Below are positions 32,103 through 47,292 of a stretch of DNA of 64,000 nt, one piece after another. Every line of letters begins with the position of its first letter. The stretch's first letter is position 1. Under the pieces are notes generated by a model that saw only the letters and a program-made list of their open reading frames with translations, searched no databases and was not told the DNA's origin. Origin of the DNA: Leucobacter ruminantium (GTDB lineage Bacteria; Actinomycetota; Actinomycetes; Actinomycetales; Microbacteriaceae); NCBI RefSeq assembly GCF_017565705.1, contig NZ_JAGDYL010000008.1, forward strand, positions 1 through 64,000. The letters are read 5' to 3'. The translations under genes were made by a program, and so were the position numbers.

Positions 32103-32135
32103 GGAGATGACGCCGGACCGGCGGGTGCGCGATCG

Positions 32136-32711
32136 TCAGTCGCGCACGAGCACGATGTCCTCAAGCGGGAGGCGGGTGCGGGGCGCGGTCTCGCGCTCGC
32201 GCAGCGTCTCGGACAGCTGCTCGGCGTCGCCGATCGCGCCGATCGCGGTGATCGAGACCGGCACGAGACGCTCGTCGAGTTCGAAGGCGGTGCGGATGGC
32301 CTCGCGGTCGAAGCCGCCCATCTGGTGGGTGTAGAACCCCTCGGCGTGCGCCTGCACGCTCAGGTGCGCGACGGCCTGGCCCAGGTCGTACTCCGCCCAG
32401 GGACGATCCTTGCCCTCGGCGTCGGTCGTCTCGGCGATGTTCACGATGAGCGCGGCGGCGGCGCCCGCCCAGGTGCGGTTGAAACCCATGAGCGTGTCTT
32501 CGACCTTGGCGAAGCTCTCGCCGCCTCGGCGGGCGATGATGAACCGCCACGGCTGCGTGTTGTTCGCGCTCGGCGCCCAGCGCGCAGCCTCCATGATGCC
32601 GCGCAGCGCGCCCTCGGGGAAGGTGTGGTCGGTGTCGAAGGCGCGGGGGCTCCAGCGCTCGGCGAGCGGTTCGATCACGGGTGCGCTGGTCTGGGCGGTG
32701 CGTGGGGTCAT
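32136..32711 (-). CDS. Nitroreductase family protein
   Basis: 191-residue FMN-dependent oxidoreductase. The N-terminal SPRAFD and WAPSANNTQPWRF (about 22-27 and 45-57) are the FMN phosphate and isoalloxazine binding parts of the family, and the C-terminal SITAIG strand is present. It reduces nitro, quinone or related compounds with NAD(P)H. ATG 32711 has GAGGAG upstream. It is separated by 80 bases from the AEC transporter gene on the same strand and may belong to the same transcript. Confidence 0.88.
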   Translation of the reverse strand: MTPRTAQTSAPVIEPLAERWSPRAFDTDHTFPEGALRGIMEAARWAPSANNTQPWRFIIARRGGESFAKVEDTLMGFNRTWAGAAAALIVNIAETTDAEGKDRPWAEYDLGQAVAHLSVQAHAEGFYTHQMGGFDREAIRTAFELDERLVPVSITAIGAIGDAEQLSETLRERETAPRTRLPLEDIVLVRD

Positions 32712-32791
32712 GCGGGTGGTCTCCTCGGGACGATGGGGTGTTCCGCACTTCTGCAACCGCGGTAAGACCGCGGCTATTCCCGCGCGGCCTC

Positions 32792-33709
32792 TCAGCCGAG
32801 CAGCCAGGCGATCCCCGCGATCACGGGCAGCGAGGCGAACGTGGTGAGGAAGACCGTGTCGCGCACCATCGTCTCGCTGCGGCGGTAGGTCGCGGCGTAA
32901 TTGTAGACGTTCTGCGCCGTGGGCAGGGCGGCGATCACGGTGGCGACGAACACCTCGTGCGGCCCGAGCCCGAGCGCCTTCGCGAGGAGCCAGGCGATGA
33001 GCGGCATGAGCAGCACCTTCAGGCCGGCGGCGCTGAAGACGGCGGCCCTGCCCGTGCCCGGCTGCAGCGCGCGCTGGCCCCGGAGCGAGACGCCGAAGCT
33101 CAGCAGCACCATCGGGATGGCGGCGGCTCCGAGCATCTCCACGGGTGCGCTCACGAGTTCCGGCACCTGCGCGCCCAGGAGCGCGACCACGAGGCCCGCC
33201 ACCGAGCCGAGGATGATCGGGTTCGAAGTGGCGCGCCCGAGCGCGACGAGGAAGCCCCGGGAGTTGCCGCGCGTGCTCTCCAGGATCGACAGCACGGCCG
33301 GGGCGAACACGACGAGCTGCACGAGCAGCAGCGGTGCCACGTAGGCCGCGTCGCCCAGGATGTAGACGGCGACGGGCAGGCCCAGATTGTTCGAGTTGAC
33401 GTAGCCCGCGCAGGTCGCTCCGAGCGTCGTGCTCGCGAGGTCGCGGCGGAACCAGAGCCGGGATGAGACGACGAAGAGCGCTGCGACGATGAGCGCCGCG
33501 AGGCTCGTGACCAGGATGACGGGGGAGAGGATCACCGAGGGATCGCTCGTGCTCAGCACCGAGAACAGCAGCGCCGGGGTGGCCACGTAGAAGGCCGTGC
33601 TGTTGAGCACGCGGCGCTGCTCGCCCTCCACGACGCGGAAGACGGCGGCGAGGTAGCCGGCGCCGATGATCCCGAGGATCACGGCGAAGCCCTGCAGCAC
33701 TCCCAGCAT
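32792..33709 (-). CDS. AEC family transporter (permease)
   Basis: 305-residue membrane protein of the auxin efflux carrier superfamily, ten helices in two halves. Bacterial members carry malonate, malate and other organic acids rather than auxin. Conserved polar residues are seen in YVNSNNLGLP and in LPTAQNVYNYA. It lies nine bases after the TPP enzyme gene, which suggests that its substrate feeds the pathway encoded by that operon. Confidence 0.88.
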   Translation of the reverse strand: MLGVLQGFAVILGIIGAGYLAAVFRVVEGEQRRVLNSTAFYVATPALLFSVLSTSDPSVILSPVILVTSLAALIVAALFVVSSRLWFRRDLASTTLGATCAGYVNSNNLGLPVAVYILGDAAYVAPLLLVQLVVFAPAVLSILESTRGNSRGFLVALGRATSNPIILGSVAGLVVALLGAQVPELVSAPVEMLGAAAIPMVLLSFGVSLRGQRALQPGTGRAAVFSAAGLKVLLMPLIAWLLAKALGLGPHEVFVATVIAALPTAQNVYNYAATYRRSETMVRDTVFLTTFASLPVIAGIAWLLG

Positions 33710-33718
33710 GCGCGGCCG

Positions 33719-35407
33719 TCAGTGCCCGCGAAAGGCTTCGGCGAGCCACCACGCTCCGCCGTCGGAGGCGATGCGGGCATCGAGCACGAGCGGGCGCGAG
33801 GGATCCCTGTCGAGCCACTCGCGCACCGCGACGAGGTCGGAGGGGCGCCGCACGGTGACGCCCTCGGCGCCGAAGCCGCGCGCGATGCTCGCGATGTCGG
33901 CGTGCGGGAATGTCACGGTGCCGAGGTCGACGGTCTCGTCGGTGCCGAAGTGGTGCACCTCGGCGCCGTAGGCGTCGTCGTCGTACACCACCACGAGCAG
34001 CGGCAGGCCGAGCCGGACGGCCGTCTCGAGCTCCGCGACCCCCATGAGGAAGCCGCCGTCTCCCGTGCCGAGCACGGGCAGGCGGTCGGGGCGCGCGACG
34101 GCGGCGCCGATCGCGGTCGCGAGGCCGAGCCCGATCGACTGGAAGGCCTGGGTGAAGCAGAAGCCGTGCTCGTCGGGCACGTCGAGGTACGCGGAGGGGT
34201 AGCCCATGAAGTTGCCGGAGTCGACCGAGACGATGCGCTCGGCCGGCAGCATCGCGTTCAGCTCGCGGCTGAGCACGCGCGGGTCGATGAGCTGCTCGCC
34301 GTCGGCGCTCGTGCCGGAGAGGTCGGGCGGGTCGAGCGGCGCATCGGCCCACCGGGCCGAGGCCGCGATGCGCGCGGCGATCTCGGGCGTGCGATACCGG
34401 GGCGAGGGATCCGCGCCGAATCGCGTGAGCGCGTCGAGCACCGCCGTCGCGGTGCTCGCGGAGTCGCCCAGCACTCCGAGGTCGATCGGGCGCCGCGCCC
34501 CGAGCGCTGCGGGGTCGAGGTCGACCTGCACCACGCGGGTCGCATCGCCGATGAGCCGGCCGTGGCGCATGGTCCACATGTTGAGCGCGCAGCCGAAACC
34601 GATGATCAGATCGGCCTCCGAGATGAGCTCCGCCGCGAGCGGCGAGGAGAATCCGCCGGAGATCCCGAGGTCGTAGGGGTCGCCGCGGAAGAGTCCCTTG
34701 GCGACGGCCGACGTCGCGAGGAGCGCGCCGCTCGCCGACGCGAGGGCTCGCAGTTCGTGGCCTGCGTGGCGCGCGCCGCGCCCGGCGACGAACACGGGCC
34801 GTTCCGAGCTCGAGATGAGCGCCGCGAGCGCGGCGACGGCGTCTTCGTCGGCGCACGGCTGCACTGGTGGGAGGGGCGGGGTGAGGGTTTCGAGCGCTGC
34901 AAAGGCCTCGGGAGGCGCGGGCTTCGCCTGCACGTCGATCGGCAGGTTCAGCACGACGGTGCGCCGTTCGTCGCGCGCTGCGCGGAAGGCGCGCACGACG
35001 TCGGCGAGGGCGCTCTCGGGGGAGTGCACGCGGTGCGCGTCGGCGGTGACCGAACGGGCGAGGCCGTCCTGGTCCATCGAGAAGTTGGAGCCGACGGCGG
35101 CTGCGGAGGCCTCCGCGGCGAGCACGATCACGGGCGTGCGGCTCTTCGCGGCCTCGCCGATCCCCGTCGCCGCGTTGGTGAGGCCGCAACCCTGGTGCAC
35201 CGAGACGAGGCCGACCGTGCCCGACATGCGCGAGAAGGCGTCGGCCATGGTCGCAGCACCGCCCTCGTGGCGGGTCGCGGTGAACGGCACACCCGCCGAT
35301 CGCAGGGCGGCGGTCACCGCGAAGTTGCCGGAGCCGACGACGCCGAAGCAGTGCCCGGCGCCCAGCCTCGCGAGCGCGCGACCGACGAGGTCGGCGACGG
35401 TGGCCAC
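33719..35407 (-). CDS. Thiamine-diphosphate-dependent 2-keto-acid decarboxylase / acetolactate synthase-like enzyme
   Basis: 562 residues with the three-domain layout of this family. The catalytic Glu48 is in ATRHEGGAA; the ThDP motif begins at about 449 with GDGGF and ends near the Asp of VVYDDDAYG. The nearest kinds are benzoylformate or isatinate-type decarboxylases and acetolactate synthase relatives; glyoxylate carboligase is unlikely, as that enzyme has Val in place of the Glu. GTG 35407 is chosen because it follows the cyclase stop by four bases with GAGGCG upstream. Predicted to split carbon dioxide from a 2-keto acid to give an aldehyde. Confidence 0.85.
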   Translation of the reverse strand: MATVADLVGRALARLGAGHCFGVVGSGNFAVTAALRSAGVPFTATRHEGGAATMADAFSRMSGTVGLVSVHQGCGLTNAATGIGEAAKSRTPVIVLAAEASAAAVGSNFSMDQDGLARSVTADAHRVHSPESALADVVRAFRAARDERRTVVLNLPIDVQAKPAPPEAFAALETLTPPLPPVQPCADEDAVAALAALISSSERPVFVAGRGARHAGHELRALASASGALLATSAVAKGLFRGDPYDLGISGGFSSPLAAELISEADLIIGFGCALNMWTMRHGRLIGDATRVVQVDLDPAALGARRPIDLGVLGDSASTATAVLDALTRFGADPSPRYRTPEIAARIAASARWADAPLDPPDLSGTSADGEQLIDPRVLSRELNAMLPAERIVSVDSGNFMGYPSAYLDVPDEHGFCFTQAFQSIGLGLATAIGAAVARPDRLPVLGTGDGGFLMGVAELETAVRLGLPLLVVVYDDDAYGAEVHHFGTDETVDLGTVTFPHADIASIARGFGAEGVTVRRPSDLVAVREWLDRDPSRPLVLDARIASDGGAWWLAEAFRGH

Positions 35408-35411
35408 GCGG

Positions 35412-36185
35412 TTACGCCTCGACGAGCGCGTAGACGCGCGCCGGGCTGCCCGTGCCGCCGACGATCGGCAGCGGAGCCACCACGATCGCCGCGCCCTTCG
35501 CGGGCAGCAGGGCCAGGTTCTGCAGCGAGGTGATGCCGTACTTGTCGGCGCCGAGCAGGTGGTAGTGCATCGGGAACGGCGGGTCGAGTTCGGCGCCGCG
35601 GCCCGCGTCGATGCCGACGGTCTCGACGCCGACGCCCGAGATCTCGGGACGCCCCGCGAGCCATGCGGCGCACTCGGCGGTGAACCCCGGCGTGTGCGAG
35701 CCGGTCTCGTCGGCATTCAGGAACGCCTCCTGCGAGTCGGCGAAGCGGTCCCAGCCGGTGCGCAGCAGCAGCCAGGTGCCCGGCTCGAACGAGCCGTGCT
35801 CGGCCTCCCACGCCTCGATGTGAGCGATGTCGAGCAGGAAGTCGTTGTCGGCCGAGGCGCTCGTCGTGAAGTCGAGCACCGCGGCGGGCCCGATGAGGCG
35901 GGCGGGCGGGATCTCCGAAACGTCGCGCCCCTCGCGTCCGCTGATCCAGTGCACCGGCGCATCGATGTGCGTGCCGATGTGCTCGCCCGTGTGGATGTTC
36001 GCGTGCTTCCAGAAGGGGCCGGGCTCGTCGTACTCGCTCACGGTCTCGAGCGAGAAGTCGATGAGGTTCGCGAAGGGATCGGGAAGCCGCAGCGTCGGCG
36101 TCGACGCGTGCAGCTTGTTGGTGAGGTCGACGACGCGGAGCGACCCCGATCCGATGGCGCCGAGCAGTTCGGGGATGAGGGACAT
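35412..36185 (-). CDS. Cyclase family metal hydrolase (kynurenine formamidase / isatin hydrolase type)
   Basis: 257 residues of the cyclase family (Pfam PF04199). The metal-binding motif HxGTHxDxPxH is complete at residues 69-79 (HIGTHIDAPVH). Known members hydrolyse N-formylkynurenine or isatin. Isatin hydrolase products are 2-keto acids that a ThDP enzyme can decarboxylate, and such a gene follows directly here, so an isatin-like substrate is an attractive inference. Start ATG 36185 with GAGGATCCC upstream. The regulator gene ends 109 bases before it. Confidence 0.87.
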   Translation of the reverse strand: MSLIPELLGAIGSGSLRVVDLTNKLHASTPTLRLPDPFANLIDFSLETVSEYDEPGPFWKHANIHTGEHIGTHIDAPVHWISGREGRDVSEIPPARLIGPAAVLDFTTSASADNDFLLDIAHIEAWEAEHGSFEPGTWLLLRTGWDRFADSQEAFLNADETGSHTPGFTAECAAWLAGRPEISGVGVETVGIDAGRGAELDPPFPMHYHLLGADKYGITSLQNLALLPAKGAAIVVAPLPIVGGTGSPARVYALVEA

Positions 36186-36294
36186 GGGATCCTCCTCGGT
36201 GCACCTGGGTGCGGATATGACGGATGCCGTTCCAGGCTACCGCGACGGGGGCGGAGGGACCGCCGACGGTTCCGACTCGTCGCAGGCTCCTCGC

Positions 36295-37194
36295 TCAACC
36301 GGTGGACGGAGCCGCGGAAGAGGCCCCCGCGCCGAGGGACCGCGAGAGGGCCGCGCCCGCCTGCCGCACGATCGTCGCGAGCGCGTCGACCCGCTCGCCC
36401 AGGCGCTCCTGCGGCCCGCTCACGTTGAGCGCGGCCACGATGCGCCCCGTGTGATCGTGCACCGGTGACGAGACGCCGATGACACCGGCCTCGAACTCGC
36501 CCTCGATGACGGCGTATCCGTTGCGCCGGATGCGACCGACCTCCTCCCAGAGCGAGTCGTAGTCGAGCACCCGGGCGTCGGCGGACGGGGGCGTCTCGAG
36601 CAGGAAGAACGGATTCGACTCCCGGTCGAAGGCCTCGCGGCCGATGACGGTCTCGTCGCGACCGTGCTCGTCGTACCAGGCGCGCAGTGATCCCTCGTCC
36701 CACTCGCTCACCAGCACGCGCCCCGATGAGGTGCGCCACGCCGCGGTCGTGACGCCCTCCCAGCCGGCCGAGCGCAGTTCGTGCGGGCTCAGCTCGCTCG
36801 CGAGGGTGAGCACGTTGCCGTGGGCGAGCACGCAGAGGTGGCTCGTCTCGTGCGTCGCGCGCACGAGCCCGCGCAGCACCGGCCTGCCGAGCCGCACGAG
36901 CTGCGCCTCCGCGGTGCGGGCGGCGAGCGCGAAGATGCGGGGGCCTACGGCGTAGCGGCCGCTGTCGGGGTCGCGCGAGGCGAGCCCTGCGGCGGCGAGG
37001 GTCGAGAGGGCGCGCGACACCACGGTCTTGCTCCGCCCGGTGAGTCGCGCGAGCTCGGTGACGCCCATCCCGCCCGCCCGCGCGGAGGCCTCGCCTGCGA
37101 GCAGCTCCAGCAGCTCGATGTCGCGGCCGAGGCCGGCCGAGTTCTTGCGACCGGCGGCGGCGACCGAGGGAGCGGACTCGAGGGCGTGAGGCAT
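36295..37194 (-). CDS. IclR family transcriptional regulator
   Basis: 299-residue regulator. The winged helix-turn-helix is near residues 22-80 (MGVTELARLTGRSKTVVSRA) and the effector domain follows (about 100-285), ending with LNVSGPQERL. IclR proteins usually control aromatic or small-acid degradation. ATG 37194 has GGAGA upstream. It is divergent from fae and upstream of the cyclase operon, so it can reach both; a palindrome at 37256 is its candidate site. Its stop codon is inside a partial dispersed repeat (36283-36303). Confidence 0.9.
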   Translation of the reverse strand: MPHALESAPSVAAAGRKNSAGLGRDIELLELLAGEASARAGGMGVTELARLTGRSKTVVSRALSTLAAAGLASRDPDSGRYAVGPRIFALAARTAEAQLVRLGRPVLRGLVRATHETSHLCVLAHGNVLTLASELSPHELRSAGWEGVTTAAWRTSSGRVLVSEWDEGSLRAWYDEHGRDETVIGREAFDRESNPFFLLETPPSADARVLDYDSLWEEVGRIRRNGYAVIEGEFEAGVIGVSSPVHDHTGRIVAALNVSGPQERLGERVDALATIVRQAGAALSRSLGAGASSAAPSTG

Positions 37195-37255
37195 GAGCGA
37201 GGTCTCCGATCTGCTGGGAGCGTACGTCGGCTCGACAATACTGGATCTAGGCCCG

Positions 37256-37281
37256 ATATGCGCAACATCAATTGCGTATAT
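37256..37281. promoter_or_regulatory. Candidate IclR operator palindrome
   Basis: Arms ATATGCGCAA (37256-37265) and TTGCGTATAT (37272-37281) are inverted repeats with 9 of 10 matches and a six-base spacer, in the divergent region between the IclR gene and fae. It is the only AT-rich palindrome there. Confidence 0.65.
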
Positions 37282-37358
37282 AGTTCCCACCTCCCTATCG
37301 TTTCCGGCGTCAGTTGCAACGCCGCCGCAGGGCGGTTCGAACGAGGGAGTGGAATCCG

Positions 37359-37892
37359 ATGACGGAGAGCATTCAACTCGGCGAGAGCTTCGTCGGAGAC
37401 GGAGTCAACGCCGCCCACATCAACACCGTGCTCGGTGAGCGCCAGGGGCCGGTGGGCACCGCCTGGGCCACCGCGCTCGCCAGCCCGAGCGAGGGCTTCG
37501 TGCCTTTCGTCGCGGTGCTGCAGCCCTCGCTGCCGGTGAAGCCCATGACGCTCTTCGTCGCGAAGGCCTCGCCCGCGAACGATCTGCACGGAACCGCCAT
37601 CTGGGGCCCCGCGCAGGCGGGAGTCGCAGCCGGCGTCGCCGATGCCGTCGCGGAGGGGATCATCCCCGAGTCGTACACCGAGACGCACGCGCTCATCGCG
37701 GCCGTCTGGGTGAACCCGGGCACCGACGACCTCGACGCGATCTACCGCAACAACCGCGAGGCCACGCGCCGAGCGCTCGAGGCAGGCGCCGCGAACGCGC
37801 CGAGCGCCGAGGCCGTCATCGCCGCGCGCAACGCGCCCCGCAATCCCTTCTACACCCCGAGCGAGGAGGTCGCCGCAGATGTCGCACGCTGA
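37359..37892 (+). CDS. Formaldehyde-activating enzyme (Fae) homologue
   Basis: 177 residues, close in length to Fae (about 170). Fae joins formaldehyde to tetrahydromethanopterin in methylotrophs. Conserved parts are GESFVGDGVNAAHIN (8-22, including the proposed catalytic His at 20), a LPVKP stretch, the GPAQAGVAAGVADAVAEGI segment (about 88-106) and a C-terminal NNREATRRA helix. The window shows no methanopterin or other methylotrophy gene. Start ATG 37359 has GAGGGAG upstream. It overlaps the next gene by 14 bases. The family is firm; the substrate is open. Confidence 0.85.
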   Translation: MTESIQLGESFVGDGVNAAHINTVLGERQGPVGTAWATALASPSEGFVPFVAVLQPSLPVKPMTLFVAKASPANDLHGTAIWGPAQAGVAAGVADAVAEGIIPESYTETHALIAAVWVNPGTDDLDAIYRNNREATRRALEAGAANAPSAEAVIAARNAPRNPFYTPSEEVAADVAR

Positions 37893-38856
37893 TCTCACGA
37901 AGCGCCCGATCGTCGGCTTCATCGGCCTGGGCAACATGGGCTCCGGCATGAGCCGCAACCTGCAGGAGAGCGGCTTCCGCCTCGTCGTCACGGACCTGCG
38001 GCGCGAAGCCGCCGAGTCGCTGCTCGCGGGCGGCGCCGAATGGGCCGACACCGCCGCCGAGGTCGCCCGCCGATCCGACGTCGTCATCACCATGCTGCCC
38101 ACCCCGCGCATCGTCTCGGCCGCGCTCCACGGCGAGAACGGCATCCTCGCGGGCCTCTCTGCCGGCAAGACCTGGATCGACATGTCCACCTCCGTGCCCG
38201 AGGTCGCCGACGGCGTTCGGGAGGAGGCCGAGGCCCGCGGCATCCGCGTCGTCGACGCCCCGGTGAGCGGCATGTCGGTGGGCGCCGCGAGCGGCATGCT
38301 GCAGATCTTCGTGGGAGCCGATCCCGAGGTCTTCGCCGAACTGCTCCCGGTCTTCGAGGCCATGGGCGATCCAGAGCGCATCATCAACGTCGGCGGCCAC
38401 GGCGCGGGCTACGCGGTGAAGCTCATGATCAATCAGCTGTGGTTCTCGCACCTCGTCGCCACCGCCGAGGTGCTCGCGATCGGAACCGCTGCCGGCGTCG
38501 ACCTCGATGTGCTGCGCCGCTCGCTCATCGCGAGCCCCGCCAACAGCAACTTCCTCGAGCGCGATGTGCTCTCGATCCTGGAGCACGGCGACTACGACGA
38601 GGGCTTCGCGATCGCCCTCGCCTGCAAGGACCTCGGGCTGTCGAGCGATCTGGCCCGCTCCGTCGGCGTTCCGAGCGAGCTGTCGGCGCTCGTCGAGCAG
38701 GTGTTCCGCCGGGCGCGGCGCTCCTACGGCGACCGGGCGGGCGAGATGACGCCCTTCAAGCTGTACGAGGATCTGCTCGGCACCGAGCTGCGCCTCGGCG
38801 CGGGCGCCTCATCGGGCGAGGGATCCGCCACCGTCGCCGAGGGGGTCGCCGCATGA
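37879..38856 (+). CDS. NAD(P)-dependent beta-hydroxyacid dehydrogenase (3-hydroxyisobutyrate dehydrogenase type)
   Basis: 325 residues. GxGxxG appears as GLGNMG (16-21), the substrate loop as DAPVSGM (about 126-132) and the catalytic Lys181 with Asn185 in GYAVKLMINQ. The family includes 3-hydroxyisobutyrate dehydrogenase, tartronate-semialdehyde reductase and related enzymes. Its reading frame overlaps fae by 14 bases and the aldehyde dehydrogenase by four, so all three are coupled. The direction and substrate are not known. Confidence 0.9.
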   Translation: MSHADLTKRPIVGFIGLGNMGSGMSRNLQESGFRLVVTDLRREAAESLLAGGAEWADTAAEVARRSDVVITMLPTPRIVSAALHGENGILAGLSAGKTWIDMSTSVPEVADGVREEAEARGIRVVDAPVSGMSVGAASGMLQIFVGADPEVFAELLPVFEAMGDPERIINVGGHGAGYAVKLMINQLWFSHLVATAEVLAIGTAAGVDLDVLRRSLIASPANSNFLERDVLSILEHGDYDEGFAIALACKDLGLSSDLARSVGVPSELSALVEQVFRRARRSYGDRAGEMTPFKLYEDLLGTELRLGAGASSGEGSATVAEGVAA

Positions 38857-40313
38857 GCGCGCTTCCCGAGCGCACCCCGACCGGCCTCTTCATCGGCGGG
38901 GAGTGGCGCGACGCCGAGGGCGGAGCCACCCTCGACGTGCTGAACCCGGCAACAGGCGAGGTGCTGGCCACGATCGCGAGCGCGACCGAGTCCGACGGCG
39001 CAGCCGCACTCGATGCGGCCGTCGCAGCGCAGGAGGAGTGGGCCGCCACCGCGCCCCGCGAGCGCGCGGAGATCCTGCGCCGCGCCTTCGAGCTGACGAT
39101 CGCGCGCAAGGAGGAGCTGGCCCGCATCATCACCCTCGAGATGGGCAAGCCCCTCGCCGAATCGCTCGGAGAGGTGGCCTACGGCGCCGAGTTCCTGCGC
39201 TGGTTCTCGGAGGAGGCCGTGCGCATCGACGGGCGCTACACGGTGTCGCCCGACGGGAAGAACCGCCTGCTCGTGCTGCACCGCCCGGTCGGCCCGAGTC
39301 TGTTCGTCACGCCGTGGAACTTCCCGCTGGCCATGGCCACCCGCAAGATCGCACCCGCGCTCGCAGCGGGCTGCACCTCGGTGCTGAAGCCGGCGCAGCA
39401 GACCCCGCTCACGGCGCTCTACTTCGCCGCGATCCTGGCCGAGGCCGGCGTGCCCGCCGGCGTCGTGAACGTCATCCCGACGTCGACCGCGGGCAGGGTC
39501 ACCGGTCCCATCATCGCCGACCCGCGCCTGCGCAAGCTGTCGTTCACGGGCTCCACCGAGGTGGGCAAGCGCCTCATCCGCGACTCGGCGGAACAGGTGC
39601 TCAAGGTGTCGATGGAGCTGGGCGGCAACGCGCCCTTCATCGTCTTCGAGGACGCAGACGTCGACGCCGCGGTCGAGGGCGCGCTCGTCGCGAAGCTGCG
39701 CAACGGCGGCGAGGCCTGCGTGGCCGCGAATCGCATGCTCGTGCACGAGAGCGTCATCGAGGAGTTCAGCTCGAAGCTGAGCGCCCGCATGGCGGCGTAC
39801 GTGCAGGGCTCCGGCCTCGAGGAGGGCGTGATGATCGGCCCGCTGATCGACGAGGCCACCCGGGAGAAGGTCGACGAGCTCGTGCACCAGGCCGTCGCAG
39901 ACGGGGCCGACCTGGAGATCGGCGGCCGGGCGCCCGACGGCCCGGGTTTCTTCTATCCGCCCACCGTACTGACCGGCGTGCCGGCCGATGCCCGCATCCT
40001 GAACGAGGAGATCTTCGGGCCGGTGGCGCCGATCGTCTCGTTCGCGGATGAGGCCGAGGCCGTGCGCCTGGCCAACGCGAGCGAGTACGGTCTCGTCGCC
40101 TTCGCCTACACGCGCGACCTGAACCGCGCGCTGCGCCTCGCCGAGCGCATCGAGACCGGCATGTTCGGTCTCAACACCGGACTCGTCTCGAACCCGGCCG
40201 CGCCGTTCGGCGGAGTGAAGCAGTCGGGCCTCGGCCGTGAGGGCGGTGCCGAGGGCATCTTCGAGTTCCTCGAGACCGTCTACGTCGGCATCGCCGACCC
40301 GCTCGCGTCCTGA
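38853..40313 (+). CDS. NAD(P)-dependent aldehyde dehydrogenase (succinate-semialdehyde type)
   Basis: 486 residues, ALDH superfamily, close to succinate-semialdehyde dehydrogenases. Catalytic Cys289 in GGEACVAANR, Glu255 in MELGGNAP, cofactor motif TPWNFP (about 153-158). ATG 38853 overlaps the previous stop (ATGA). It would oxidise an aldehyde made by the dehydrogenase or by the decarboxylase operon. The GGEACVAANR form (not GQxC) is typical of the GabD group. Confidence 0.92.
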   Translation: MSALPERTPTGLFIGGEWRDAEGGATLDVLNPATGEVLATIASATESDGAAALDAAVAAQEEWAATAPRERAEILRRAFELTIARKEELARIITLEMGKPLAESLGEVAYGAEFLRWFSEEAVRIDGRYTVSPDGKNRLLVLHRPVGPSLFVTPWNFPLAMATRKIAPALAAGCTSVLKPAQQTPLTALYFAAILAEAGVPAGVVNVIPTSTAGRVTGPIIADPRLRKLSFTGSTEVGKRLIRDSAEQVLKVSMELGGNAPFIVFEDADVDAAVEGALVAKLRNGGEACVAANRMLVHESVIEEFSSKLSARMAAYVQGSGLEEGVMIGPLIDEATREKVDELVHQAVADGADLEIGGRAPDGPGFFYPPTVLTGVPADARILNEEIFGPVAPIVSFADEAEAVRLANASEYGLVAFAYTRDLNRALRLAERIETGMFGLNTGLVSNPAAPFGGVKQSGLGREGGAEGIFEFLETVYVGIADPLAS

Positions 40314-40329
40314 CGAGCGGCGCTCCCTC

Positions 40330-41256
40330 TCAGCGGCCCCGGCCCGGCTGCCCCTGCAGGCGCCGGGCCGGGGTCGGGTCGAGCACCGCGGCGGCCTCGT
40401 CGGCGATGATCGCGGAGAGCGCATCGAGCACCGGCGAACGCAGATTCCACCGCTGCCAGTAGAGGGGGAGTTCGACGGGCGCCCCCGGCCTGAGATCGGT
40501 GAAGCGGCCGGCGGCGATCCCTTCGGCGCACTGGCGCTCGGGAAGCATGCCCCATCCCATGCCGAGCTCGATCGCGGTGGCGAACTCCGCAGAGGACGGC
40601 ACGTAGTGGCGGGGCGGGTCGATGCGGGCGCGCGTGACCGACGAGATGAAGCGCTGCTGGAACATGTCCTGCCGATCGAACTCCATCATGGGGGCGGCTC
40701 CGAGGGTATCGGCCGTGATGCCCGCGGCGAAGTGCTCGGCGGCGAAGTCGGGTGCCGCGACCGCGTGGTAGCGATCGACGCCGAGCAGCGTCGAGGTGCA
40801 GCCGGGCACCGCCGCGGCCGTCGCGGTCAGCGCCGCCATCGCCTCGCCGTTGCGCAGCCGCGCGGTCGAGACGGTCTCGTCGGCTCGCAGCACTTCGAAG
40901 CGCGCTCCCGTCTCCCGCGCGGCTCGCGCGAGCGCGGGGACGACCCAGGTCGCGAGCGAATCCGCGTTGACGACGAGCGGCACGAGGGATCCCGACTGGC
41001 CTCCGCCCAGTTCGGCGGCGACGTCGTCCGCGATCCGGGCGAGCTGCCGCGCTGCGCGCAGCACCGCGGATCCCGCCTCGGTGACCTCGACGGGGCGCGT
41101 GCGCCGCAGCAGTACGGTGCCCACGCGCTGCTCCATGGCGCGCACCCGCTGACTCACGGCGGAGGGGGTGATGTGCAGGTGCCGGGCGGCGCCTTCGAAG
41201 CTGCCCTCGTCGACGATCGCCGCGAAGGTGCCCAGGTGCTCGACCGGCAGATCCAT
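40330..41256 (-). CDS. lysG: LysR-type regulator of the lysine/arginine exporter (LysG/ArgP)
   Basis: 308 residues, LysR family. The helix-turn-helix is at about 16-60 (GSFEGAARHLHITPSAVSQRV) and the effector domain follows. It is divergent from lysE, the usual LysG-LysE layout, in which LysG activates lysE when basic amino acids accumulate. ATG 41256 has an excellent ribosome site AAGGAGGAG, so the longer frame to 41289 is not used. The intergenic region is AT-rich near 41275-41300 and should hold the LysG site. Confidence 0.9.
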   Translation of the reverse strand: MDLPVEHLGTFAAIVDEGSFEGAARHLHITPSAVSQRVRAMEQRVGTVLLRRTRPVEVTEAGSAVLRAARQLARIADDVAAELGGGQSGSLVPLVVNADSLATWVVPALARAARETGARFEVLRADETVSTARLRNGEAMAALTATAAAVPGCTSTLLGVDRYHAVAAPDFAAEHFAAGITADTLGAAPMMEFDRQDMFQQRFISSVTRARIDPPRHYVPSSAEFATAIELGMGWGMLPERQCAEGIAAGRFTDLRPGAPVELPLYWQRWNLRSPVLDALSAIIADEAAAVLDPTPARRLQGQPGRGR

Positions 41257-41337
41257 CGCTCCTCCTTCTGAAGTATTGCTTATGTACATTCAGAATATGC
41301 AGTGACGCTGAAGTAGCGCGAGCCGGTTCGCGCCCCG

Positions 41338-41343
41338 TAACGT
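41338..41343 (+). promoter_or_regulatory. -10 box for lysE, leaderless
   Basis: TAACGT ends seven bases before the GTG at 41351 and there is no ribosome site. Confidence 0.5.
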
Positions 41344-41350
41344 CGTCTCC

Positions 41351-41965
41351 GTGATCCTCCCCCTTCTCGTCGGCGCAGGCAGCGGCCTCTCCCTCATCGT
41401 CGCCATCGGCGCCCAGAACGCCTTCGTGCTGCGCCAGGGCATCCGCCGCGAGCACGTGCTCCCCGTCGTGCTCATCTGCGGGCTCACCGACGCGCTCCTC
41501 GAATTCCTCGGCGTCGCGGGAATCGGCTTCGTCGTGCAGCGCGCGCCCGTCGTGCTCGAGGTCGTGCGGTGGGGCGGAGTCGCGTTCCTGCTCTGGTACG
41601 CCTGGACGGCGGCGAGGCGCGCCATGCGGCCGGAAGCGCTCGTCGCGGGCGAGGGATCGGGGGGCTCTCTCAAGAAGACGGTGCTCGCCTGCCTCGCCAT
41701 CACCTACCTCAACCCGCACGTCTACCTCGACACGATGGTGCTGATGGGCTCCATCGGTAACGCGCAGGGCGATCCCGCGCGGTGGTGGTTCGTCGCGGGC
41801 GGCGCGCTCGCGAGCATCGTCTGGTTCTTCCTGCTCGGCTACGGCGCGCGGGCGCTCACCCGCTTCTTCGCGACGCCGCGATCGTGGCAGGTGCTCGACG
41901 CGCTCGTCGCCGTGGTCATGCTGGCGATCGCGGCGCGCCTCGCCTTCGGGGGCGTCGGGGTCTGA
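41351..41965 (+). CDS. lysE: LysE family amino acid exporter
   Basis: 204-residue membrane exporter for lysine and arginine, with about six helices. The N-terminal GAGSGLSLIVAIGAQNAFVLRQG (about 8-30) and the LNPHVYLDT motif (about 119-127) are typical of LysE/ArgO. GTG start at 41351 with a nearby TAACGT box and no ribosome site. Divergent lysG supports the assignment. Confidence 0.93.
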   Translation: MILPLLVGAGSGLSLIVAIGAQNAFVLRQGIRREHVLPVVLICGLTDALLEFLGVAGIGFVVQRAPVVLEVVRWGGVAFLLWYAWTAARRAMRPEALVAGEGSGGSLKKTVLACLAITYLNPHVYLDTMVLMGSIGNAQGDPARWWFVAGGALASIVWFFLLGYGARALTRFFATPRSWQVLDALVAVVMLAIAARLAFGGVGV

Positions 41966-41983: not shown

Positions 41984-42739
41984 TCAGTGCCCGGGAGCGG
42001 GCGCGAGCCGGTAGAGCACCTCGGGCCTGCCGCGGCGCCCGTAGCGGTGCGAGAGGTCGATGCTGCCCGCATCGACCAGGTAGTCGAGATAGCGCCGCGC
42101 CGTCGCCCGCGAGATCGAGCAGCGCTCGGCCAGCTCGGCCGCGGTCACCGGGACCACCGGGTCGAGCGACGCCAGCACCCGCTGCAGCGTCACCTCGGCC
42201 AGGCCCTTGGGCAACTCCTCGAGCGGCGGCGATCCCTCGCCGGCCGAGCGGCTTGGCGCCCGCTCCGCACCCGGCACCCTGATGCGCCCGGTCGAGAGCA
42301 GCCGGTCGATCTCGCCCTGACCGAGCGGCCGCTCGCGGTCGCCGGCCTCGCGCTCCCGCCGCTCCGCCCGATAGACGCCGAGGCGATCCCTCAAGGCCTC
42401 CTGGGTGAACGGCTTCACGAGGTACCCGACGACGTGCGCCGCGAGCGCCTGCCGCACCGTCACCTGATCGCGCGACGAGCTGATCACCAGCACATCGGGC
42501 GAGTCGGCTCCGAGGGTGCGGAGACGGTTGAGCACCTCGACGCCGCTGATGTCGGGAAGGCGCATGTCGAGCAGCATGAGGTCGACGCCCCCGTGGGCAC
42601 CGTGCTCCACGGCCGCCCGTCCGGTGCCGACCGCGGCCACGAGAGCGAAACCGGGGGTCTCCGCGACGAAGCGGCTGTGCAGGCGGCGGGCCCCCGGGTC
42701 GTCGTCGACCACGAGCACGCGGATATCGTTGGCCGTCAT
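41984..42739 (-). CDS. Response regulator, CitB/DcuR family
   Basis: 251 residues. Receiver domain at about 1-125 with acidic cluster VVDDD (10-14), phosphoacceptor Asp58 in MLLDMRLP and Lys in YLVKPF. The C-terminal half has the CitB/DctR-type DNA-binding helix-turn-helix (AELAERCSISRATARRYL). These regulators control C4- or C6-carboxylate uptake. It overlaps the kinase gene by four bases, and the divergent tctCBA genes are the likely target. Confidence 0.9.
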   Translation of the reverse strand: MTANDIRVLVVDDDPGARRLHSRFVAETPGFALVAAVGTGRAAVEHGAHGGVDLMLLDMRLPDISGVEVLNRLRTLGADSPDVLVISSSRDQVTVRQALAAHVVGYLVKPFTQEALRDRLGVYRAERREREAGDRERPLGQGEIDRLLSTGRIRVPGAERAPSRSAGEGSPPLEELPKGLAEVTLQRVLASLDPVVPVTAAELAERCSISRATARRYLDYLVDAGSIDLSHRYGRRGRPEVLYRLAPAPGH

Positions 42740-43974
42740 CTCCGCACCCCCATGTCGAATCTGAAGCACGCCCCTCCGAGGGCGGAGCGGCCGAGCTCCA
42801 CCGTTCCGCGGTGCGCAGCGACCGTGCGGCGCACGAGGTCGAGGCCGATCCCCCGCCCGGCACCCGAGGGATCCGGCTTCGACGAGAAGCCCCGCGAGAA
42901 GACGCGCTCGACGTCCTTCGGGTCGACCCCCGGACCGTCGTCCTCGACGGTGCCGTGCAGACGGCCGTCGCGCTCCACCAGCGCGCAGCGCACGAGCGAG
43001 GAGCCCGCCTCGCCCGCGTTGCGGCAGAGGTTCGCGAGCACGAGCGTCACGTCTCCTCCGAGCTCGGAGGAGACGTCGATCGCGGTCTCCAGCCGGGTGC
43101 CGACGGCCCCGAGCTCGGCGCGCAGCGCTTCGAGCGTCGCCCGCAGCAGCGGCTGATCGTGCGTCGCGTCGTCGGCCGACTCCGTCAGCACCGGCGCCGC
43201 CTCGGCGATGTAGGCGAGGGCGTCGTCGGTGTCGCCGTGCGAGACGAGGCCGTGGATCACGTGCAGCCGCGTGTGGAACTCGTGGGACTGCTCGCGGAGT
43301 GCGGCCGCTGTGCGCCGCACGCCCTCGAGCTCGCGCGCCGCCTCGTCGAAGCGGCGGAAGCGGCGCAGCAGGGCTGCGGCGATCAGCGAGCTCGCGAGGG
43401 TGCCGGCCAGGAGGGAACCGAACGCCCACGGAAGCAGGCGGCCGAGCGCTTCGTCGAAGTCCTCGGCGATGCGGGTCTCGAGGATGCCGACGGAGAGCGT
43501 GCCGATGATCGCACCGCCCGGGCCGCGCACCGGAACCTTCGCGCGCAGCGTGGGCCCCAGCGTGCCGGTCTCGGTGCCGAGGAACTCCTCGCCCGCCAGC
43601 ACGTCCGACGGATCGGTCGAGACCGGCCGCCCCCGCTCCTCGGGAGAGGGATGCGTGATCCGCAGCCCCCGATCGTCGGTGATGACGACGTAGTCGACGC
43701 CCGCTGCGCGCTCGACGACATCGGCGAGGGGCTGCAGCTCCCGCGTCGCAGCGGCGAGATCGCCGTCGGCATCGCTCAGCGCCCCGCGCACCTGATCCAG
43801 AGCGGCGAGGCTCGTGGCGACCGCCCGCACGCGCTCGGCCGTGGCCTCGCGCACGCTCCGCTCCTGCACGGCGACCGCGATGGCCGTGGTGACGCCCACG
43901 CAGACGAGCACGATGAGGCAGGGCAGCAGCAGCACGCCGATGCGGGCGGCGCGCGACGATCCCTGTCGAGACAT
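42736..43974 (-). CDS. Sensor histidine kinase, CitA/DcuS family
   Basis: 412 residues. Two membrane helices (about 14-35 and 182-203) flank a periplasmic PAS-like (CitA-type) sensor domain. The phosphoacceptor His231 is in the SHEFHTRLHVIHGL motif typical of the family; N-box NLCRNAGEA and G boxes DDGPGV and GRGIGLDLV follow. ATG 43974 has GGAGG upstream. It should sense a carboxylate such as citrate and drive the response regulator encoded after it. Confidence 0.92.
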   Translation of the reverse strand: MSRQGSSRAARIGVLLLPCLIVLVCVGVTTAIAVAVQERSVREATAERVRAVATSLAALDQVRGALSDADGDLAAATRELQPLADVVERAAGVDYVVITDDRGLRITHPSPEERGRPVSTDPSDVLAGEEFLGTETGTLGPTLRAKVPVRGPGGAIIGTLSVGILETRIAEDFDEALGRLLPWAFGSLLAGTLASSLIAAALLRRFRRFDEAARELEGVRRTAAALREQSHEFHTRLHVIHGLVSHGDTDDALAYIAEAAPVLTESADDATHDQPLLRATLEALRAELGAVGTRLETAIDVSSELGGDVTLVLANLCRNAGEAGSSLVRCALVERDGRLHGTVEDDGPGVDPKDVERVFSRGFSSKPDPSGAGRGIGLDLVRRTVAAHRGTVELGRSALGGACFRFDMGVRR

Positions 43975-44109
43975 GGGAGCCACCTCCTGCACCCGCCCTC
44001 CGTGCGTATCTATGAGCACAATTCTCGGTGTGGTACCACGCACGACGAACTGCTGTCATCTTAGTAGCCGGTGTGCGGCGACGACGGAGTCCGCACGGAG
44101 GAGCTGAAC

Positions 44110-45135
44110 ATGACGGAAGACGTTCAAGAACAGGGCGCGGCGCCCCCGGGCACGAAGACGAGGCGAACCGTGTTCCGGATCATCGGCGGCGCGGTGGCCG
44201 CCGCGGCGATCGGCATCGCGAGCTACGGGTCGATCAGCTCGGCAGCCGCAGGCCAGGACATCCACACCTCGATGACGATCATCGCCCCGGCAGCGGCCGG
44301 CGGCGGCTGGGACACGGTCGCGCGCGAGATGCAGCAGGCTCAGAAGGCCAACTCGCTCGTCAACAACGTGCAGGTGGTCAACATGCCGGGAGCCGGCGGC
44401 ACCATCGCCCTCGGCAACGTCTCGACGCTCGAAGGGCAGGCGAACAACCTCATGGTCGGCGGCACCGGCCTGCTCGCCGCGACGATCCAGTACGGCTCGG
44501 CGGCGACCCTCGACGACGTCACCTCGCTCGCCGTGCTCTTCGAGGAGTACGACGTGGTCGTCGTGCCGGCGGACTCGCCGTACGAGACCCTCGACGACCT
44601 CGTGGAGGCCTGGCGGGACGACCCCAAGTCGATCCCCTGGACCGGAGGCGGATCGTTCGATCAGCTCGTCGTCGCCGATCTCGCGCTCGCCGCGGGGATC
44701 GACCCCGTCGACACGACCTACATCTCGTCCGACGGTGGTGGCGAAGCCATTCAGGCGCTGCTCAACGGCACCGCCGGCGCGGCGACGGGCGGCTACTCCG
44801 ACAACGTCGACCAGATCGAGTCCGGCCGCCTGCGCGCCCTTGCGCTCGTCGCCGAGGAGCCCGTCGAGGGCATCGATATCCCGACCGCGCGCGATCAGGG
44901 CTTCGACGTCACCCTCACCAACTGGCGCATGGTCGCCGCGCCTGCGGGGATCACGGATGAGGAGACCGAGCAGCTCGCCGAGCTCGTGCTCGAGACCACC
45001 GAGACGCCCGAGTGGCGCGACGCGATCGACCGCTACCGCTGGGCCGAGCGCGTGATCACCGGCGACGAGCTCTCCGAGTTCCTCATCGAGGAGCGGAAGC
45101 GCATCGAACTGCTGTACGAGGAGATGGGCCAATGA
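44110..45135 (+). CDS. tctC: Tripartite tricarboxylate transporter, substrate-binding protein TctC
   Basis: 341-residue extracytoplasmic binding protein of the Bug/TctC family. An N-terminal signal region contains TRRTVFRIIGG and a hydrophobic core (about 22-40); the family marks PAAAGGGWDTVAR and NMPGAGGT follow (about 60-100). ATG 44110 has GGAGGAG upstream, so the earlier ATG-like frames are not used. The 135-base divergent region with the kinase holds a GTGGTACCAC palindrome (44030-44039), a weak operator candidate. The substrate is probably citrate or another tri/dicarboxylate. Confidence 0.92.
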   Translation: MTEDVQEQGAAPPGTKTRRTVFRIIGGAVAAAAIGIASYGSISSAAAGQDIHTSMTIIAPAAAGGGWDTVAREMQQAQKANSLVNNVQVVNMPGAGGTIALGNVSTLEGQANNLMVGGTGLLAATIQYGSAATLDDVTSLAVLFEEYDVVVVPADSPYETLDDLVEAWRDDPKSIPWTGGGSFDQLVVADLALAAGIDPVDTTYISSDGGGEAIQALLNGTAGAATGGYSDNVDQIESGRLRALALVAEEPVEGIDIPTARDQGFDVTLTNWRMVAAPAGITDEETEQLAELVLETTETPEWRDAIDRYRWAERVITGDELSEFLIEERKRIELLYEEMGQ

Positions 45136-45773
45136 TGCCGTCGAACAACCCCACGGCCGTGTCGTCCGTGATGGGCGAGGAATTCGAGACCGGCACCGCC
45201 GGCTCGACCGGGGAACTGCTGAAGAACCTCGCGATGCCCGCGATCACCGCGGCCTTCGCGACCTACCTGCTGATCGGCCTGTTCACCATGCGCGTGCCCG
45301 AGGGAACCGTGTTCCCCGGCCCGAAGTTCTTCCCGGGCATCATCACGGCAGGCCTCTACCTGTTCGCGATCCTGCTGGCCGTCGGCGCGGTGCGGAAGCA
45401 CCGAGCGGGTGCCGACGCGCTCGTCCCCGCCGGCGTCGAGGGCCCGACGGACGACCCCGACGCCGAGGGCCTCGAGGGATCCCTGCTCCTCACCGATGAG
45501 GGCGCCGAGCCGGCCTCGTCGTCGGGCGCGGTGCACTGGCCGTCGCTCGCGTGGATCGTCGGCGCCTTCATCGGCTTCGCCCTGCTGCTCACGGTGCTCG
45601 GCTGGATCATCGCCGCGGCGCTGCTCTTCTGGTGCGTCGCCCGCGGCTTCGGCTCCGAGCGCGTGCTGGGCAACCTCGTGGTGGGGCTCACGGTGGCCTC
45701 GCTCAGCTACATCCTCTTCGACATGCTGCTCGGACTTTCGCTGCCCTCGGGCATTCTGGGCTGGGGGTTCTGA
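45132..45773 (+). CDS. tctB: Tripartite tricarboxylate transporter, small membrane subunit TctB
   Basis: 213 residues, four hydrophobic segments (about 38-56, 70-88, 140-160, 185-205). Between helices 2 and 3 is an acidic soluble loop of about 40 residues that is longer than usual. Start ATG 45132 overlaps the tctC stop. It is the small subunit paired with TctA. Confidence 0.9.
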   Translation: MMPSNNPTAVSSVMGEEFETGTAGSTGELLKNLAMPAITAAFATYLLIGLFTMRVPEGTVFPGPKFFPGIITAGLYLFAILLAVGAVRKHRAGADALVPAGVEGPTDDPDAEGLEGSLLLTDEGAEPASSSGAVHWPSLAWIVGAFIGFALLLTVLGWIIAAALLFWCVARGFGSERVLGNLVVGLTVASLSYILFDMLLGLSLPSGILGWGF

Positions 45774-45774
45774 C

Positions 45775-47292
45775 ATGGACGCACTGCAACTGCTCGCCGA
45801 CGGCTTCGCCGGCGCACTCACCTGGCAGAACCTCATGTGGGTGGTCATCGGCTGCCTGCTCGGCACCGCCGTGGGCGTCATGCCCGGCCTCGGATCGTCG
45901 ATGGCGGTGGCCCTGCTGCTGCCGATGACCTTCGCCCTCGAACCGACCGCCGCGTTCATCATGTTCTCGGGCGTCTACTTCGGCGGCCTCTTCGGCGACT
46001 CCACCATGAGCATCCTCATGAACATGCCCGGCCAGGCCTCGGCGATCGCCTCCACATTCGAGGGGCACAAGATGGCCCTCGACGGGCGCGCGGCGCAGGC
46101 GCTCGCGACCGCGGCGATCGGCGCCTTCACCGGCGGCTTCATCGCCTCGATCGTCGTCGTCTTCGCGGCGCCGCTGCTCGCCGAGTTCTCGACCAAGTTC
46201 GGTCCGGCCGAGTTCTTCGCGCTGGCGCTGTTCGCCTTCGTCGCGACCTCGTCCGTCGTCACCGACAGCCCCCTCAAGGGCATGGTCTCCCTCTTCCTCG
46301 GACTCGGCATCGCCGTGGTCGGCGTCGACGGCGTCTCGGGCGCACCGCGCTTCACCTACGACTCCCCGAACCTGTTCGACGGCATCTCGCTCGTCACCGT
46401 GACGGTCGCGATCCTGGCGCTCGGCGAGGTGATCTACGTCGCGTGCCTCCAGCGGCACATCGCGGGCGGCAGGCTCATCCGCCCGAAGGGGCGGCCGTGG
46501 CTCTCGGGCGCCGAGTTCCGCGAGGCGCTGCCTGCCTGGCTGCGCGGCACCGCGATCGGCCTCCCGTTCGGCGTCGTGCCGGCCGGCGGCTCGGAGATCC
46601 CGACCTTCCTCGCCTTCGGCCTCGAGAAGAAGCTCGACGCCCGCCGCAAGAACCCGAAGTTCGGCAAGGGCGCGATCCGCGGCCTCGCGGCTCCCGAGGC
46701 GGCGGGCAACTCGACGACGGGCATGGCGATGGGAGCCCTGCTGGCGCTCGGCCTGCCGATCTCGGCGACGGCCGCCATCATGCTCGCGGCCTTCCGCCAG
46801 TACGGTCTGCAGCCGGGCCCGCTGCTCTTCGAGCGCTCCTCCGACCTGGTCTGGGCGCTGCTCGCGAGCTTCTTCATCGCGATGGTCGTGCTGCTCATCC
46901 TGAACCTGCCGTTCGCGATGCTGTGGGCGAAGCTGCTGCTGATCCCTCGCCCCATGCTCTACGCGGGCATCACCGTGGTCTGCGCGCTCGGCATCTACGC
47001 GACGTCGGGGAAGACCTTCGACCTGCTGCTGCTGCTCGCGATCGGCCTCGTCGGCTTCGTGATGCGGGCCGCCGACTACCCGCTCGCACCGCTCATCATC
47101 GGCATGGTGCTCGGCCCGCTCGCCGAGACGAGCCTGCGCGACGCCGCGATGAGCGCGAACGGCGACTTCGGGGTGCTGTTCCAGGGGCCGATCGCACTGT
47201 CGCTCTACGCCCTGCTGCTGCTCGTCGTGGCCTACGCCGTGCGCGGCCGCATCGTGGCGCGGAAGCGGGAGCGGGCTCTGGCCGAGGTCTGA
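45775..47292 (+). CDS. tctA: Tripartite tricarboxylate transporter, large permease TctA
   Basis: 505-residue membrane permease with about 11-12 helices. The N-terminal GTAVGVMPGLGSSMAVALLLP (about 30-50) and the second-half PFGVVPAGGSEIP and PEAAGNSTTG motifs are typical TctA marks. It starts one base after the tctB stop and closes the tctCBA operon, which is followed by a strong hairpin. Confidence 0.94.
   Translation: MDALQLLADGFAGALTWQNLMWVVIGCLLGTAVGVMPGLGSSMAVALLLPMTFALEPTAAFIMFSGVYFGGLFGDSTMSILMNMPGQASAIASTFEGHKMALDGRAAQALATAAIGAFTGGFIASIVVVFAAPLLAEFSTKFGPAEFFALALFAFVATSSVVTDSPLKGMVSLFLGLGIAVVGVDGVSGAPRFTYDSPNLFDGISLVTVTVAILALGEVIYVACLQRHIAGGRLIRPKGRPWLSGAEFREALPAWLRGTAIGLPFGVVPAGGSEIPTFLAFGLEKKLDARRKNPKFGKGAIRGLAAPEAAGNSTTGMAMGALLALGLPISATAAIMLAAFRQYGLQPGPLLFERSSDLVWALLASFFIAMVVLLILNLPFAMLWAKLLLIPRPMLYAGITVVCALGIYATSGKTFDLLLLLAIGLVGFVMRAADYPLAPLIIGMVLGPLAETSLRDAAMSANGDFGVLFQGPIALSLYALLLLVVAYAVRGRIVARKRERALAEV

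Follow-up and report, generated by a model that had tools for sequence, protein, structure and literature searches.

Homologues of the formaldehyde-activating enzyme (Fae) were divided into five groups in a 2024 study (PMC11748545), in which groups 2-4 are described as being without a known function and a role in transfer to tetrahydrofolate (THF) or in sensing is suggested for them. The present analysis is concerned with a Fae-like protein of 177 amino acids that is encoded at positions 37359-37892 (forward strand) of a 64,000-nucleotide stretch of Leucobacter ruminantium (contig NZ_JAGDYL010000008.1, positions 1 to 64,000), which is called the window hereafter. The gene was found to be followed on the same strand by genes for a HIBADH-family (beta-hydroxyacid) dehydrogenase (37879-38856) and an aldehyde dehydrogenase (ALDH; 38853-40313) resembling succinate semialdehyde dehydrogenase (SSADH), and preceded by a divergent IclR regulator gene (36295-37194, reverse strand). 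The Fae-like protein was placed in a methanopterin-independent subfamily, and the cassette is read here as half of a pathway that would degrade a small alcohol bearing a carboxylate and an amine and in which the Fae-like protein acts on an aldehyde, a reading to which a probability of roughly 0.45 is given.

The window protein resembles the members of groups 2-4 in being a homologue outside the two groups of known function, and the set of that paper includes actinomycetes. The portions consulted give no operon context or pathway, unlike what is described here. An earlier note on this DNA had judged the pathway to be undescribed, and the titles and abstract beginnings of the open-licence literature agree with it; among the matches listed, neither a description of the Fae cluster nor a bacterial breakdown pathway for betaine-type glyceryl ethers was found. 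Database records and profiles name these proteins formaldehyde-activating enzyme, a label that can mislead surveys using fae as a marker of methylotrophy, Mch having been found in none of the 28 Fae-bearing Actinomycetota genomes examined for it. The glutathione-dependent Gfa, which is likewise named formaldehyde-activating enzyme in two papers, was set aside as a member of an unrelated family.

Comparison with methanopterin-type Fae

The Fae-like protein scored 172.7 bits against PF08714 (cut-off 27) and 150.6 bits against TIGR03126 (cut-off 118.05). Its structure model, with a pLDDT of 76.8 and lower confidence for residues around 41-70, matched the M. extorquens Fae structure 1y60 in Foldseek with an E value of 3e-16, and the VIA fold comparison gave Z 23.4 with 34% identity to 1y60 and Z 23.8 with an rmsd of 2.0 over 154 aligned residues to 1y5y, the identity to these two structures being 34-36%. 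Behind the two Fae entries, most of the matches were to EF-G-like and spliceosomal domains, whose Z of 8-9 indicates a common fold only.

The His at position 20 (numbering of the window protein throughout), which the earlier note had pointed out as kept and which we take to be the catalytic His of Fae, was found within an AHI(D/N) motif common to M. extorquens Fae. Among 52 rows not of the methanopterin type, H20 was conserved in 51 and T64, K69 and Q86 in all 52, and the near-invariance of these four residues across actinobacterial and proteobacterial rows suggests catalysis. The same rows were found to contain the changes D22N (50 rows), Q77H (51), H119N/D (52), W120P (51) and H162N (50), whereas Asp22, Gln77, His119, Trp120 and His162 were invariant in five methanopterin-type rows. 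Four rows had been dropped before these counts, namely L024, L025 and L032, the same records as L019, L017 and L014, and L027, a near copy of L026 (here and below, L and G numbers are our labels for loci and genomes).

In a tree of 59 rows, seven methanopterin-type rows (Azoarcus, Azospirillum, Phyllobacterium, M. extorquens, two Methylocystis and one Rhizobium) were split from the 52 others with support of 100/100 and a branch length of 3.75, and the window row was nested with support of 99/96 among rows from the OpuC/AGPS clusters described below; the bootstrap of this tree was not settled and several of its rows are long-branched. The methanopterin-type status of the seven rows is based on an adjacent mch gene in three, on the literature for M. 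extorquens and on similarity for the two Methylocystis and the Rhizobium; the Fae genes of the Azoarcus, Azospirillum and Phyllobacterium plasmids lie within methanopterin operons, adjoining mch. Of the checks against methylotroph Fae proposed earlier, structure prediction gives the window protein a Fae fold and phylogeny a place outside the methanopterin-type rows. Family, fold, His20 and the Thr/Lys/Gln core are shared with M. extorquens Fae (1y5y/1y60), whereas the window genome has no Mch, the five methanopterin-type residues named above are replaced, and the window gene stands in an operon with dehydrogenases and not with mch.

Mch was found in none of 12 Fae-bearing genomes (the window's own and 11 relatives), with a profile that matched the control archaea, and in none of 16 further Fae-bearing Actinomycetota genomes. 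The RFAP synthase profile, which also matched the control archaea, gave no match above cut-off in the 12 genomes; four weak matches below it, of which the window's genome has one, presumably represent different proteins of the GHMP fold. The Mpt_N profile matched no control and was uninformative. The absence of tetrahydromethanopterin genes alongside Fae, noticed at first in the window only, was thereby extended to whole genomes for Mch and for RFAP synthase (above cut-off), and both negatives support a Fae homologue that is independent of methanopterin.

In the set of 100 related genomes Fae was present in 12, 11 of them among the 54 of the genus Leucobacter, and in a sample of 396 genomes across the phylum it was present in 17; both counts include the window's own genome. 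More distant members were found in Paraburkholderia, Caballeronia, Burkholderia, Dyella and Ensifer, and we take the scattered distribution to reflect a mobile accessory pathway.

Conserved neighbours and the partner half

The fae-like and HIBADH genes overlap by 14 bases and the HIBADH and ALDH genes by four, as the earlier note had stated, and its description of an operon of Fae with two dehydrogenases was found to extend to relatives, where the order is kept. A tblastn search over 39 Fae loci, which include three fetched twice as well as the near copies L026/L027, found HIBADH in 21, ALDH in 37 (the match of L034 being only 36% identical) and IclR in 20. Because the gene order is conserved across Fae loci, the association is more than chance. 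Within 8 kb of Fae, a gene of the HIBADH, AKR, Fe-ADH or Zn-ADH family was present in 41 of 52 loci, an ALDH gene in 39 and both in 38, the ALDH class mixing several kinds of ALDH and the AKR counted for L014 being a different gene. Unrelated families swap in as the alcohol dehydrogenase near Fae, and the class of function is constant. Genes outside the window were called by codon-score scripts, and the names purH (purine), malate dehydrogenase (mdh), permease and H-NS in neighbouring loci were assigned by eye.

The window HIBADH (PF03446 and PF14833) was found to have tartronate semialdehyde reductase (1vpd) and 2-hydroxymethylglutarate dehydrogenase (3cky) as its best PDB matches, and 4-hydroxybutyrate activity occurs in the HIBADH family. 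The window ALDH (PF00171) has E. coli GabD (3jz4) as its nearest solved structure and shares with it the carboxylate-site residues, whereas it lacks the second Cys of the CVC motif and scores 559.6 against the NCBIfam SSADH model, under the cut-off of 646.35. In the SSADH-like ALDHs beside Fae, the residues that we take to form the carboxylate-binding site of SSADH (Arg, Arg and Ser) are conserved, so that the substrate of these ALDHs probably bears a carboxylate. Five other ALDH rows were without these residues.

An enolase-superfamily gene was present near Fae in 10 of 52 loci. The Fae clusters of the genus g151 (L078, L080 and L092) were found to contain an amino-acid permease, a ureohydrolase, a class-III aminotransferase and an ALDH, to which L080 and L092 add enolase-superfamily and Fe-ADH genes; in L080 (1-9950) the ureohydrolase passes the agmatinase cut-off and the aminotransferase the gamma-aminobutyrate transaminase cut-off. 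The genes of these clusters are suggestive of C4 semialdehydes, small amino acids and amino alcohols.

The cluster of Leucobacter celer, several Microbacterium, Naasia and Lentzea was found to contain an IclR gene and, divergent from it, four OpuC-type ABC genes followed by Fae, HIBADH, ALDH, a short-chain dehydrogenase/reductase (SDR), an FAD enzyme and an FGGY kinase. The binding protein of this OpuC-type quaternary-amine ABC importer is a relative of OpuAC/OsmF. The profile of the FAD enzyme matched AGPS (4bby) over positions 49-477 of 487 with an E value of 4e-56, against 9e-39 and only the N-terminal part for glycolate oxidase, and the HHHG.GK.R..W motif, to which we ascribe a catalytic role in AGPS, was present in 11 of 11 AGPS-like sequences. 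From the stronger and longer match and the motif, the enzyme is taken as a relative of AGPS and not merely of the glycolate-oxidase type. It resembles AGPS over most of its length and in this motif, and differs in being bacterial and in lying in a catabolic-looking cluster with the FGGY kinase and the SDR, where ether cleavage would be its predicted role. The FGGY kinase matched xylulokinase, autoinducer-2 kinase and glycerol kinase, all under their cut-offs.

The triad of SDR, AGPS-like enzyme and FGGY kinase is read as a putative bacterial module for the cleavage of glyceryl ethers. A glycerol 3-phosphate (G3P)-responsive antiterminator gene adjoins the triad in G024 (PF04309, 1e-59), and similar open reading frames (ORFs) were noticed by eye in G009 and G034. 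The triad was located at L034 10693-14422, L097 8844-12603 and L098 5961-9772, the last with a G3P-responsive antiterminator, and was found in Actinomycetes and in one Acidimicrobiaceae genome.

The window genome was found to carry the remaining genes on another contig, C1 (locus L097), where E1/E2 dehydrogenase genes are followed by IclR, four ABC genes, SDR, the AGPS-like gene and FGGY. This set is the L. celer cluster without Fae-HIBADH-ALDH, and the missing genes sit in the window. The AGPS-like protein of C1 was an 87% match encoded in one ORF of 486 amino acids, a single TGA in the aligned stretch being flagged by one search and none by the profile search. The IclR of C1, to which the window IclR is related, is 73% identical to that of L015.

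Among the 54 Leucobacter genomes the AGPS-like gene was present in seven, all of which also carry Fae (Fisher 1.9e-6), the weak match of G056 (207 bits) being excluded from the count. With the three linked cases excluded, four of four AGPS-like genomes carry Fae (Fisher 2.8e-4); these values are uncorrected for kinship and overstate independence, since the unlinked G009, G024 and G034 are close kin.

Genes of the 2-oxoacid dehydrogenase E1/E2 type adjoin the cluster in three Leucobacter loci (L014 1474-5224, L015 and L097 759-4290), and similar ones lie near Fae in the distant loci L083 (3622-7015) and L036 (14605-18135), possibly by chance. Another set of an ABC importer, Fae, HIBADH and SSADH is borne by a Streptomyces clavuligerus megaplasmid (L050 5514-12790).

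Proposed pathway and competing explanations

It is rather probable that the Fae cassette belongs to one pathway with the OpuC/AGPS-type cluster, and this linkage appears well supported within the genus and weaker in the phylum. In the proposed route the OpuC-type importer would bring in a quaternary-amine compound, the kinase would phosphorylate a glyceryl ether, and the SDR, as part of the triad, would oxidise C2 to give alkyl-dihydroxyacetone phosphate, from which the AGPS-like enzyme, by exchange or hydrolysis, would release dihydroxyacetone phosphate and an alcohol R-OH. The HIBADH (elsewhere the AKR, Fe-ADH or Zn-ADH) would then oxidise the alcohol to an aldehyde. Acting on this aldehyde, the Fae-like protein would release the amine by elimination or hydrolyse a carbinolamine or iminium; the conserved His20, Thr64, Lys69 and Gln86 would serve in this step, with no methanopterin, and the SSADH-like ALDH would oxidise the resulting aldehyde to an acid.

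Glyceryl-N,N,N-trimethylhomoserine is the head group of the betaine lipid diacylglyceryl-N,N,N-trimethylhomoserine (DGTS), and its features would fit those of the substrate, an assignment that we offer tentatively. From it, 2-(trimethylammonio)-4-oxobutanoate could lose trimethylamine by beta-elimination to give an unsaturated semialdehyde, which the SSADH-like enzyme would convert to fumarate. Fae normally joins an aldehyde and an amine reversibly, with loss of water, and it would take little change for a member to split or rearrange a carbon-nitrogen link in an amino-aldehyde. That the Fae-like protein carries out such a carbon-nitrogen reaction as stated is possible, though doubtful, and the fuller proposal, recruitment of the Fae fold as a C-N lyase or an iminium/carbinolamine hydrolase in the breakdown of betaine-lipid head groups to a C4 dicarboxylate, is unlikely to hold in all its parts. 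In more general terms, handling of an aldehyde by the Fae-like protein with another partner is plausible. The PF11899 domain, which we take to be BtaA, was found in none of eight genomes, so that the organism seemingly does not make DGTS by the BtaA route. For at least one kind of Fae that lacks a known function, the cluster offers partners and a definite class of substrates that can be tested, and it suggests a route for the degradation of betaine-type glyceryl ethers.

Several observations weigh against the catabolic reading. In the phylum sample the AGPS-like gene (four best candidates scored per genome) was present in 3 and Fae in 17 of 396 genomes, both together only in the window's own genome, and since the two are mostly apart there, Fae is apparently common to several upstream pathways. 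G092 carries an AGPS-like gene without Fae, and that of G034 is probably broken, being found in two pieces (C1:2714231-2715669, locus L100). The transporters differ across the 52 Fae loci (OpuC in 14, MFS in 18, Dpp in 5 and APC in 3), the Leucobacter cluster L013 was without an ALDH match, and the sole ALDH near Fae in L034 was without the SSADH residues. Eight of the 52 loci, some on short contigs, show a second context, in which the immediate partner of Fae is a 2-oxoglutarate enzyme of the HalD family (L045 5140-6338 and L081-L087, for example L082 8586-9919), the assignment being made by Pfam for three of the eight and by similarity for the others, with the HFD metal motif seen in three. 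None of the four dehydrogenase families and no ALDH was found near Fae in these eight loci, so that a role tied to dehydrogenases and ALDH does not cover every case, and L079 and L089 have neither dehydrogenases, ALDH nor a HalD-type partner. No betaine-lipid gene was found among the part of the neighbours that was annotated, and we know of no biochemical precedent for the proposed Fae chemistry.

The main rival, which is held to be rather unlikely, is that the Fae-like protein handles formaldehyde with THF or a thiol to give methylene-THF and that the dehydrogenases serve a formaldehyde-releasing pathway. Such a role would suit the three HalD-type loci L045, L085 and L087, where the pair comes after the same four genes, purH, metF, mdh and an acyltransferase-like gene (metF of L085 passes TIGR00676), and the HalD-type 2-oxoglutarate hydroxylase could be a demethylase; methanotroph Fae1-2 is also modelled as THF-linked in PMC11748545. 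However, purH-metF-mdh may be housekeeping neighbours, no demethylase or monooxygenase was found among the recurrent annotated neighbour families of the dehydrogenase-type clusters, and the SSADH-like carboxylate residues indicate an acid semialdehyde rather than formaldehyde. It is quite improbable that the protein is a non-catalytic binder of an aldehyde or a pterin-like ligand, a sensor or a scaffold for the two dehydrogenases: its small size, the overlapping operon, the many residues differing from Fae around the conserved core and the mention of sensing in PMC11748545 agree with this, whereas the near-invariance of the four core residues across the 52 rows suggests catalysis.

An ordinary methanopterin-dependent Fae is hardly credible, although the protein passes the TIGR03126 cut-off and has the Fae fold, in view of the missing Mch, the lack of RFAP synthase above cut-off and the tree position outside the methanopterin-type rows. 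The earlier note had also proposed that the thiamine diphosphate (ThDP)-dependent decarboxylase encoded divergently beyond IclR produces an aldehyde, which would then be bound or condensed by Fae. This proposal, which has only adjacency across the IclR gene in its favour, was not borne out and is very improbable: cyclase, ThDP enzyme, AEC transporter and nitroreductase gave no match in any of the 39 Fae loci, their operon is conserved in Leucobacter without Fae, and the corresponding locus of G026 is without the cassette.

Formaldehyde from N-demethylation is not favoured, given the same lack of a demethylase among recurrent annotated neighbour families of the dehydrogenase-type clusters. Dimethylsulfoniopropionate cleavage is not favoured, the ALDH being SSADH-like and the enolase-superfamily gene recurring (10/52), and neither is a Weimberg-type breakdown of sugar acids, an amine or amino-acid importer (OpuC or APC) being present in 17 of 52 loci, although the MFS and Dpp types are unspecific.

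Neighbouring operon, palindrome and further loci

The cyclase operon on the reverse strand was found to contain an isatin-hydrolase-like cyclase (35412-36185, PF04199), a ThDP-dependent decarboxylase/lyase (33719-35407, PF02776/PF00205/PF02775) and an AEC transporter (32792-33709, PF03547), followed at its end by a nitroreductase-family gene (32136-32711, PF00881); all four are regarded as neighbours of the proposed pathway and not as members of it. Pfam matches agree with the identities first given to the cyclase, the ThDP enzyme, the AEC transporter and IclR (PF01614/PF09339, codon-scored gene call). The cyclase matched isatin hydrolase 5nmp with an E value of 2e-69 (114/254 identical) and shares 45% identity and the HxGTHxDxPxH motif with isatin hydrolase (5nmp, 4j0n), whereas its activity is a predicted one and its relation to the Fae cassette is that of a neighbour. 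Solved structures are only distantly related to the ThDP enzyme (best E 9e-41). The operon (32136-36185) may degrade isatin by way of isatinate to 2-aminobenzaldehyde, the ThDP enzyme being a putative isatinate decarboxylase.

Orthologues of the ThDP enzyme with at least 58% identity were present in 14 genomes, namely 12 further Leucobacter (G030, G038 and G050 among them with partial or split matches) as well as G073 and G076, and none of the 14 carries Fae. In the ThDP loci inspected the cyclase was adjacent in seven of seven, AEC in six and the nitroreductase in five. G026 (L114) aligned with window positions 32134-36198, 36223-36244 and then from 40391, with 23 bases separating the last two blocks, and its cyclase operon runs directly into argP-lysE, as beyond the cassette in the window. 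The IclR-Fae-HIBADH-ALDH stretch of about 4.1 kb (36245-40390, breakpoints approximate) was gained in the window genome or lost in G026. Gain is likelier than loss because the cassette is rare and its genes are part of another cluster elsewhere; it is probably an inserted, horizontally gained cassette, and the two gene sets are most likely adjacent by insertion. Different genes were found beyond the cyclase in L113, L115, L116 and L118.

A palindrome of 26 bases reported at 37256-37281, ATATGCGCAACATCAATTGCGTATAT, was confirmed and is a possible IclR operator. It is intergenic only with the codon-scored IclR start near 37194 and lies inside the gene with the GTG start at 37290. Its half-site ATATNCNCAAC recurs once before the ABC operon of the partner half (L097), so that at the start of both halves there stand an IclR gene and, divergent from it, a site containing this half-site; the site of L097 is weak when taken alone, 32 of 200 shuffles giving a match with one mismatch permitted. 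The half-site was picked after the sequences had been viewed, which makes chance values too favourable, and exact matches occur also at unrelated places in L040, L075, L076 and L079. No sigma-70 promoter was found in a scan of 35300-40500, and the two terminator-like sites that it gave, against an expected 1.0, overlap each other inside ALDH.

Beyond the cassette, argP-lysE (40330-41965) was found next to a region (41984-47292) with a Cache-domain two-component system divergent from a complete TctCBA tricarboxylate transporter. The Fae operons of Paraburkholderia (L037 3248-9395 and kin) were found to be preceded by a sigma-54-type regulator, identified by eye, together with a beta-lactamase-fold hydrolase (Pfam) and an H-NS-like gene of 96 amino acids.

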